Origin: Acidihalobacter sp.
GTDB taxonomy: Bacteria > Pseudomonadota > Gammaproteobacteria > DSM-5130 > Acidihalobacteraceae
Length of the DNA stretch: 64,000 nt
Reading direction: 5' to 3'
NCBI GenBank assembly: GCA_027013225.1
Contig: JALUXU010000067.1
Location: 1 to 64,000, forward strand
Shown: positions 19,566 through 42,597 of the stretch, piece after piece
Layout of the letters: every line of letters starts with the position of its first letter
Position numbering within the stretch: position 1 is the first letter of the stretch
Translations under genes and position numbers: made by a program
The notes under the pieces: model-generated
Told to the model about the DNA's origin: nothing
The model's database searches: none
The model's input: the letters and a program-made list of their open reading frames with translations, nothing else

Positions 19566-19975
19566 AAAAAAGCGGTTGCTGCCGAATATCTTTGTGTTTC
19601 CGGTTGCGGATTCAAGCCCGGACAAGCCTGATTTACCCGTTGATCCAACCATCAGACGCAGGTCTCCTGCCAGGGCAGGCGCCACATGCCAGAGCACCTG
19701 AGCGTGGGTGCGCTCGCAGGGAGCGGGAAAGCGAATTTCGCAGGTAAAAGATATCCAGCCGATCGCCACTGCTGCTTGGACAGCGGGCGCCTTGAACGGA
19801 AGCTATCCCGCAGTCCATTACGTGTGCGCCATGACGAGGTGCAACTAACTTACTTTACAGCAGCAAGGATTTCAAAATGAATCCCGCCGGGATCGATGCT
19901 GCAATTTTCCCGTTCGGTGCATTGGGCGAACCGGTTTTAGTGGATCCCACCAAAACTCGGCCCGCCCTCATGGAA
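19566..19975. other. intergenic stretch without a supported gene
   Basis: These 410 bases lie between the ends of the convergent hrpA and the Gly-rich protein gene. Several short frames are open on both strands but none has a family-like sequence with a convincing start. I see no T-rich hairpin and no tRNA or known RNA. It may be decayed coding DNA. Confidence 0.4.
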
Positions 19976-20479
19976 TCAGCCGTGGCCGCCATCGCCACCG
20001 CCATCGCCACCGCCGCCGCCGCCGTGGCCACCGTGGCCGCCACCGCCGCCGCCGCCGCCGCCACCGTGGCCGCCGCCGCCGCCCATGCCGCCATGGTCGC
20101 CACCACCGTGGTCACCGCCCATGCCGCCGTAGCCGCCTCCGAAGGCACCGTGATCAGGCGAATTGTCGTTGGAGGAATGTGACGATGTGTCAGCGGAGTG
20201 GTCGGGTGAACTCGAATCAGATCCGCTCGCGGACGTATTTACGGAATGGTCGAGAGAATTCGGCCCAGATCCGGTTGCAGATGAGGAAGCATTTGCACTC
20301 GAGGCCTGCTTGACCAGATCCGGCGTATTGTCAACAGAGGGCCCTGCGCCGGATTGGGCGGCGGGCGTGTTTGACGGAATATCGGAAAACAATGATCCGG
20401 CGTAGGCCGCCCCCGCAAAGGGGAAGCCCGCGGCCAGCGCGACCGCCAACAAGGTTTTCTTTGGGAAAGTGTGATTCAT
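19976..20479 (-). CDS. secreted Ser-rich / Gly-His-rich low-complexity protein
   Basis: This predicted exported protein of 167 residues has no recognised family. The start is the ATG at 20477-20479, preceded by GAGGAG. A signal peptide (KKTLLAVALAAGFPFAGAAYA) is cut near residue 27. The next ~85 residues are Ser/Asp/Asn-rich, with three imperfect repeats around SLDHS, SPDHS and SPDHG. The last ~55 residues are nearly all Gly with His, Asp and two Met, a flexible, possibly metal-binding tail. The tail is encoded by a dense GGC/GGT-rich tract. An alanine-rich frame on the opposite strand mirrors this tract and is a shadow, since it lacks signal peptide and context. Function is unknown. Confidence 0.7.
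   Translation of the reverse strand: MNHTFPKKTLLAVALAAGFPFAGAAYAGSLFSDIPSNTPAAQSGAGPSVDNTPDLVKQASSANASSSATGSGPNSLDHSVNTSASGSDSSSPDHSADTSSHSSNDNSPDHGAFGGGYGGMGGDHGGGDHGGMGGGGGHGGGGGGGGGGHGGHGGGGGGDGGGDGGHG
19982..20145. repeat. GC-rich triplet low-complexity tract
   Basis: This is a run of GCC/CACC/GCC-type triplets on the plus strand, giving Gly-His-rich codons on the minus strand. The pure GCC runs at about 20011-20025 and 20044-20062 could slip during replication. Changes in multiples of three would alter tail length; others would change the frame near the C-terminus. Confidence 0.75.
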
Positions 20480-20742
20480 GGGTGGATCTCCTCTCATCGT
20501 CATGTGATTGTATCTTATGGTCCGGACGGTGCGGTGCCGGCCAAACGCGATACAGATCAAATTTAGTGGACGATCCCAGATAGATCAAGTTACCAAAATG
20601 ACATGTGATTGCATCGTTCTCTTCCGCCTATCGCCCGCCATCTTTTGCGCCTACGCACCCTTAGTCTCCTGCCACCCAAGCGGCAAGGCGTACCGGTTGC
20701 ACATCGATCAGGCAGGGCCCTGTCATCTAAATTCGTAAGCCG

Positions 20743-21021
20743 TTGAAAAGCGGAGCGGGTATCGACCTCTATGTGCTGCCGCCGAAACGGCCCCAGCGCA
20801 ATGGCGGGGTGGAACGGGCCAATGGCATCTGGCGCTACGCGTTCTATGCCAGCTACCCGCTACCGACCACGATACGGGCGCTTCGTCCCCTGGTGCAATG
20901 GTGGGAACAGGTCTGCAATCTGCTGCGCCCCCATCAGGCATTGAAACAGAGAACCCCAGCCGAGTATCTTCGTGAGGCCGGGTATGAGGTCCCTGAGGTC
21001 GCGGTGTCTCATATGTACTGA
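20743..21021 (+). pseudogene. C-terminal fragment of an integrase-core transposase
   Basis: About 92 codons match the end of a DDE integrase-type transposase (rve domain): LPPKRPQRNGGVERANGIWR, which holds the catalytic Glu, and LRPHQALKQRTPAEYL. The first two thirds of such a protein are missing, as are visible terminal repeats. It is a remnant of an IS481/IS3-like element, and family placement is tentative. It sits 15 bases before the atp operon promoter, so the insertion or deletion that left it defined the upstream edge of the atp region. Confidence 0.8.
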
Positions 21022-21035
21022 ACCAGGGCACTTGG

Positions 21036-21064
21036 TTGACGCAAAAAGAGTAACTCTCTATACT
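21036..21064 (+). promoter_or_regulatory. sigma-70 promoter of the atp operon
   Basis: TTGACG (21036-21041) and TATACT (21059-21064) are separated by exactly 17 bases, five of six matches in each box. Transcription would begin near 21071, about 45 bases before atpI. It lies just after the transposase fragment. Confidence 0.75.
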
Positions 21065-42042: not shown

Positions 42043-42597
42043 ATGAACGCAAAGCATAACTTGATTACCCTCGGTATGGCGAGCGCGCTTTTGGCGCTGC
42101 CGGCAGCGCCGGCCTTTGCCTGGTCCAGCGTGGAATATGTAAAGGCCCGGGTGGTGAATGTGGAGCCCATTATGCAAACGGTGCAGGTGCGTGGCCCGGG
42201 GCGACGTGTTTGCTGGACACAAGAGCAAACCCGCCAAATCAGACGACCGGTATCGAATCCGGATTCGATTGGCAATACTGTGATCGGCGCCGTCCTGGGC
42301 GGGATTGCCGGTTATCAATTCGGTCATGGCCACGGCAGAAATGCGCCGGCCGTGGCAGGCGCGCTTCTGGGTGGAGCCATCGCCAATAATATGTCGAATG
42401 GCTATTCCCAGAGCTACACGGAAACCATTCCGGTGGAACGCTGCAAGATCAAGCATCGTTACCGCACAGTGGAGCAAATCGTAGGTTACCGCGTGAGTTA
42501 TCTCTATCAAGGCGAAGTGTTCACCACACGCATGAATCATCGGCCGAAGCGGTTCATTCGCTTGCGGGTCAGCGAACGCGTAACTCCAGTAAACTAA
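42043..42597 (+). CDS. glycine-zipper 2TM envelope protein (SlyB-like)
   Basis: This exported protein of 184 residues has a signal peptide (ITLGMASALLALPAAPAFA). A central glycine-zipper segment, around residues 86-112 (IGNTVIGAVLGGIAGYQFG, then AGALLGGAIANN), is like the 2TM glycine zipper of SlyB and related outer-membrane proteins. There is no lipobox Cys at the cleavage site, so it is not an obvious lipoprotein. A strong ribosome binding site (TAGGAGGA) precedes the ATG. It heads a four-gene run with a PepSY protein and a PhoP/PhoQ-like pair; in enterobacteria SlyB is PhoP-regulated and restrains PhoQ, so feedback control is plausible (inference). Confidence 0.8.
   Translation: MNAKHNLITLGMASALLALPAAPAFAWSSVEYVKARVVNVEPIMQTVQVRGPGRRVCWTQEQTRQIRRPVSNPDSIGNTVIGAVLGGIAGYQFGHGHGRNAPAVAGALLGGAIANNMSNGYSQSYTETIPVERCKIKHRYRTVEQIVGYRVSYLYQGEVFTTRMNHRPKRFIRLRVSERVTPVN

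Follow-up and report, generated by a model that had tools for sequence, protein, structure and literature searches.

A complete open reading frame (ORF) on the minus strand, here called P0001, most likely encodes an orphan protein of a familiar type, exported and low in complexity. It lies at positions 19976–20479 of the window, that is, the whole 64,000-nucleotide stretch of DNA that was analysed. P0001 is probably a real gene, and the reading we favour is that its product is a disordered polyelectrolyte of the cell envelope or matrix. More specifically, and tentatively, we take it for a lineage-restricted gene whose exported, intrinsically disordered, low-complexity product binds its partners through charge. 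If this holds, P0001 would exemplify a recently arisen exported gene, confined to its lineage and assembled from simple repeats, in a group that is of interest for saline bioleaching, where contact with mineral surfaces matters; secreted low-complexity orphans otherwise offer no sequence handle on function.

Anatomy and coding status of P0001

P0001 runs for 167 codons from an ATG at 20479 to a TGA at 19976–19978 and specifies a protein of 167 aa. The first-pass annotation had bounded the feature exactly but left its strand unsaid, and the design that it described, a signal peptide followed by SxDH repeats and a Gly-rich tail, agrees with the protein sequence. The features of the gene are as follows.

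20507–20512, minus strand: possible −10 box TACAAT without a matching −35, from sequence reading
20488–20492, minus strand: Shine-Dalgarno (SD) sequence AGGAG, 8 bases ahead of the P0001 ATG
19976–20479, minus strand: P0001, putative gene for an orphan exported low-complexity protein, from the ORF, its anatomy and a start-site scan
20399–20479, minus strand: Sec-type signal peptide, residues 1–27, with the predicted cut between AYA and G, from sequence reading and a simple rule
20225–20272, minus strand: repeat copy 1, residues 70–85 (GSGPNSLDHSVNTSAS)
20177–20224, minus strand: repeat copy 2, residues 86–101 (GSDSSSPDHSADTSSH), matching copy 1 in register at 36 of 54 bases
20150–20176, minus strand: partial repeat copy 3, residues 102–110 (SSNDNSPDH), with 21 of 54 bases identical to copy 2 and the SPDH core kept
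19979–20149, minus strand: Gly-His-Asp tail, residues 111–167, coded by GGC-rich triplets

The signal peptide, read straight from the sequence, is MNHTFPKKTLLAVALAAGFPFAGAAYA followed by G; two lysines precede a hydrophobic run and the AYA-G site. A rule-based test together with the AXA site classifies it as a Sec signal peptide, and the predicted export of P0001 is well supported by sequence. On the P0001 strand, a consensus scan found neither promoter nor terminator. From residue 29 onward, the protein (139 residues) contains 47 Gly, 25 Ser, 13 Asp, 10 Ala and 10 His. The 57-residue tail is 74% Gly (42 G, 6 H, 4 D, 2 M and one each of A, F and Y), its Gly codons being 32 GGC, 9 GGT and 1 GGA, and Tandem Repeats Finder reported within it a 33-bp tandem unit (20005–20083; 2.4 copies at 93%).

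The linker between signal peptide and tail carries the words SLDH, SPDH and SPDH, whose Asp residues (77, 93 and 109) follow one another at intervals of exactly 16. Three SxDH words were thus observed in the middle of the protein, where at least two arose in 113 of 20,000 composition-preserving shuffles. The best 14-mer self-match of P0001 is weak alone, being equalled by 136 of 2000 shuffles. At the DNA level, the identity between copies 1 and 2 was reached by none of 20,000 random window pairs, although the copy 1–2 pair was chosen by its SxDH register and the random pairs received no such optimisation. A genuine duplication of DNA seems to have produced copies 1 and 2, and copy 3 is mostly eroded (it matches copy 1 at 19 of 54 bases). 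To judge from these repeats, both tail and linker may have been lengthened by slippage of triplets and short tandem duplication. Differences between copies 1 and 2 number 3, 5 and 10 at codon positions 1, 2 and 3 (P ~0.04); those between copies 2 and 3 number 10, 9 and 14 (pooled with copies 1–2, P ~0.03). This third-position excess is a modest sign of coding.

A start test placed P0001 in a small group. Among 667 stop-to-stop stretches (80 codons or longer) drawn from 124 kb (the window plus three more 20-kb stretches of the same contig), four pair a signal-peptide-like N-terminus with an SD sequence of at least 5 bases, P0001 among them, under a rule composed after P0001 was seen. The other three are a protein that we take to be PstS-like, a glycine-zipper protein and one in L049; the first two resemble exported proteins. 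All 501 coding bases are open in minus frame 0 only, among the six frames, and the frame of P0001 stays open over 202 codons.

Codon usage gave a mixed picture. Scored across the full interval, minus frame 0 ranked first of the six frames (10.5 bits; next −7.1). However, the codon score of P0001 is weak, at 0.06 bits per codon versus 0.21–0.39 in eight printed genes of the window. Within the tail, the P0001 frame (19.9 bits) is exceeded by a plus frame (46.9) and by another minus frame (24.5); outside the tail it scores −9.4 bits, against 4.3 for a plus frame with two stops. The first-pass annotation had named preference for an opposite-strand frame as grounds for doubt: by codon score the preference goes to P0001 over the interval as a whole, and to the opposite strand possibly in parts. 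Two plus-strand ORFs overlap the gene.

20163–20405, plus strand: ORF with a TTG start and no SD sequence seen upstream; its frame has a stop inside repeat copy 3
19877–20182, plus strand: Ala-rich ORF of 101 aa with an ATG start and AAGGA 7 bases upstream

The third-position excess suits the ORF at 20163–20405 equally, because its third positions coincide with those of P0001. The ORF at 19877–20182 is probably a shadow of the GGC tract; it is hard to dismiss entirely because of its ATG and the AAGGA upstream. Because of the signal peptide, the SD-preceded start and the repeat duplication, a real gene is the most likely reading of P0001 despite its weak codon score.

Distribution and genomic setting

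P0001 looks like an orphan known so far from one genome, where it is a single copy; the second place found by the search of that genome (40 bases, C5) lies in what we take to be a flavoprotein-like gene. A search of relatives returned 1 of 37 genomes, its own alone. The class search returned 6 of 369 genomes including its own, with no credible homologue among the 368 others, and the phylum search with residues 1–116 returned 4 of 398 including its own, with none among the 397 others. Nor was a credible homologue present in IMG/VR, GTDB contigs, plasmids or phages, the plasmid collection being queried with DNA of the P0001 region as well. These collections may omit records very near the P0001 genome, and the whole-genome sets are samples. 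P0001 matched nothing in Pfam (E ≤ 1), NCBIfam (E ≤ 10) or Rfam, and among the papers searched none joined Acidihalobacter with glycine-rich. Lack of homologues was one half of what the first-pass annotation had named as speaking against the feature, and that half is what we found in the collections, the class and the phylum.

In the five nearest genomes, a search at E ≤ 10 gave the P0001 genome itself and weak, stop-containing matches (G004, E 0.64; G001, E 1.67); the latter lies inside the hrpA gene span. All eight other class and phylum matches were inspected and fall in or across other genes: four (L051, L052, L054, L055) are Gly-rich stretches of other proteins, that of L054 presumably DnaK-like; one (L170) is the signal-peptide region of another protein; and three (L053, L169, L171) have stops in the matched frame and lie over or beside ordinary genes. 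Eight PDB sequences, of which six are antibody-type or fusion constructs, matched at E 0.018–0.68, and a PHROG match at E 0.52 was taken as chance. A GGHGG-type pattern occurs 16–23 times in each of the five nearest genomes, mostly little above the reversed control, and its count is uninformative. The longer word GGHGGHGGG is common to 3 of the 368 other class genomes; in two (L160, L162) it sits in an unrelated Gly-His-rich protein whose N-terminus looks export-like, and in the third it lies outside any ORF of at least 70 aa.

P0001 is flanked on one side by a gene that we take to be hrpA and on the other by an insertion-sequence (IS) remnant followed by atpI-atpB. No P0001 match was found next to atpI (6 genomes) or next to hrpA (4 genomes), the hrpA search showing a 19-residue Gly match in L043 at E 0.22; the four nearest relatives, apparently acidophilic Acidihalobacter, lack P0001 at both flanks. 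The atpB product is 69–78% identical to those of G001–G004 and at best 57% identical among 80 matches listed in a collection that omits near records. In the four relatives, a presumed parB-like gene is followed by atpI. In the P0001 genome this order is broken: parB is on another contig, adjoining what is presumably a prmC-like gene, and the order here is hrpA, P0001, IS remnant and then atpI. The remnant has two parts.

20713–20759, plus strand: left arm of a dispersed MITE-like element
20754–21038, plus strand: 3′ portion of an rve_3 insertion sequence with an internal deletion

It joins 47 bases of the MITE-like element to the final 285 bases of the IS, the two overlapping by 6 bases. The MITE-like element occurs at 25 other places in the genome, one of just 23 bases, and in C42 a complete element stands side by side with a longer IS copy. 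As read from the sequence, the remnant marks a chromosomal rearrangement breakpoint between P0001 and atpI. The accessory role that the first-pass annotation drew from a neighbouring transposase fragment is weakened accordingly by what the neighbour is: a deleted IS fused to a dispersed-repeat arm at a breakpoint, with no sign that P0001 moves. P0001 as a mobile passenger of the IS was likewise rejected: the IS has other copies, which lack P0001 because P0001 is single-copy in the genome.

Several further observations were made in the same DNA. The MITE-like element is ~165 bp long with inverted ends CAGGGCCCTGTCATCTAA and TTAGATGACGTGGTCCTG (for example in L036, L037 and L038), and in 9 of its 25 places read by eye, three copies showed 10-bp flanking duplications, as for a MITE. 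The IS remnant (20754–21038) abuts a sigma-70-like promoter match, TTGACG-17-TATACT at 21036–21064, ahead of the atp operon. Elsewhere in the window, a plus-strand gene at 42043–42597 encodes a 184-aa protein with an export-like start, a strong SD sequence and a glycine-zipper 2TM domain.

P0001 might instead be non-functional: an ORF that is spurious, decaying or newly born in a GC-rich slippage tract near the breakpoint, with little or no function; we consider this unlikely, though it deserves a serious hearing. It would account for a codon score under gene level, for the absence of a homologue from the collections searched, for the two overlapping plus-strand ORFs and for the adjoining breakpoint. 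Against it, a signal peptide, an ATG and an SD sequence are rarely found together (4/667), and no frame other than the 202-codon open frame of P0001 spans the interval.

Calculated charge, possible disorder and possible binding

The host appears to be Acidihalobacter-like, with an acidophile habit inferred from its relatives. Rusticyanin-like matches, all below the family cut-off, occurred in 5 of 5 nearest genomes versus 1 of 14 control genomes; this is consistent with, but no proof of, a lifestyle of iron or sulfur oxidation in acid. The genome is 2.27 Mb and the GC content of the window 56.6%, whereas the Acidihalobacter strains of PMC6396713 have larger genomes (3.36–3.57 Mb) and higher GC (59.9–64.5%).

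The calculated charge of P0001 is +11.8 at pH 2, +3.9 at pH 4, −1.8 at pH 5 and −11.1 at pH 7, crossing zero between pH 4 and 5. Since Arg, Glu and Cys are absent from the mature part and only one Lys is present, its charge is set almost wholly by His and Asp. A single-sequence structure model had a mean pLDDT of 48 and no secondary structure, a weak result. Under the reading that we favour, a disordered polyelectrolyte of the envelope or matrix, Sec export would remove residues 1–27, and a linker rich in Ser, Asp and Asn, containing a duplicated unit of 16 residues, would bear a flexible Gly tail with spaced His and Asp. The mature protein could then act as a charge-based binder in the periplasm or in a cell-surface matrix. 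In acid its contacts may be a polymer, a mineral surface or anions, with metal possible if the pH rises.

The composition of P0001 makes metal or mineral binding only a possibility, and binding of metal would be less likely at acid pH because His is protonated. A specific form of this idea, which we regard as doubtful, is that P0001 is an exported, SilE-like sponge that captures periplasmic metal ions through its His/Asp tail. Low-complexity regions enriched in His and Asp go with Co/Ni-binding proteins, according to PMC6821194, and SilE itself is a precedent, described in PMC5008109 as a disordered periplasmic metal (silver) sponge with His and Met motifs, belonging to the sil efflux operon. 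The P0001 tail does offer 6 His, 4 Asp, 2 Met and, by eye, one HGGM. However, its His are sparse (6/57) and unclustered and would be protonated in acid surroundings, the neighbours hrpA and atpI/atpB include no metal-efflux gene, and no Pfam or NCBIfam match was obtained.

A bolder elaboration, which strikes us as improbable, would make P0001 a species-specific gene born or remade by triplet slippage and short tandem duplication; its product would be an exported polyelectrolyte charged almost solely through His and Asp, strongly cationic in acid and anionic near neutrality, serving as a pH-switched polymer of the matrix or of mineral contact.

Comparison with known systems

An RTX-like calcium binder, in which GGxGxD-like words of the tail would bind Ca2+ outside the cell, is very improbable: two such words, GGMGGD and GGGGGD, are visible by eye in the tail, but poly-Gly plus Asp yields them easily, and no tandem GGxGxDxUx nonapeptide array was found by eye or by Pfam at E ≤ 1. 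Staphylococcal Sdr surface proteins combine a long SD dipeptide array with an LPXTG anchor. P0001 shares with them a Ser/Asp-rich repeated linker, but both the array and the anchor are absent from its sequence, and the Sdr proteins belong to a different kind of cell envelope.

Like SilE, P0001 is small and is predicted to be exported and disordered, with His and Met in its chain. PMC5008109 places SilE in an efflux operon and gives it His/Met motifs, whereas P0001 has no such neighbours and is mostly Gly with sparse His. No metal-efflux gene adjoins P0001, and no curated family match (Pfam, E ≤ 1; NCBIfam, E ≤ 10) places it with SilE/PcoE.

Gly-His-rich ORFs also occur in other gammaproteobacteria, one of 84 aa in L162 (1383–1637) and one of 262 aa in L160 (838–1626), the latter ending C-terminally in a membrane-like segment. 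Both resemble P0001 in an export-like N-terminus (by eye), GGH low complexity and the word GGHGGHGGG; unlike P0001, they lack the SxDH block, and by eye they have no other sequence in common with it. Neither was matched in the P0001 class search. As unrelated Gly-His-rich, exported-like proteins, the two are a sign of convergence.
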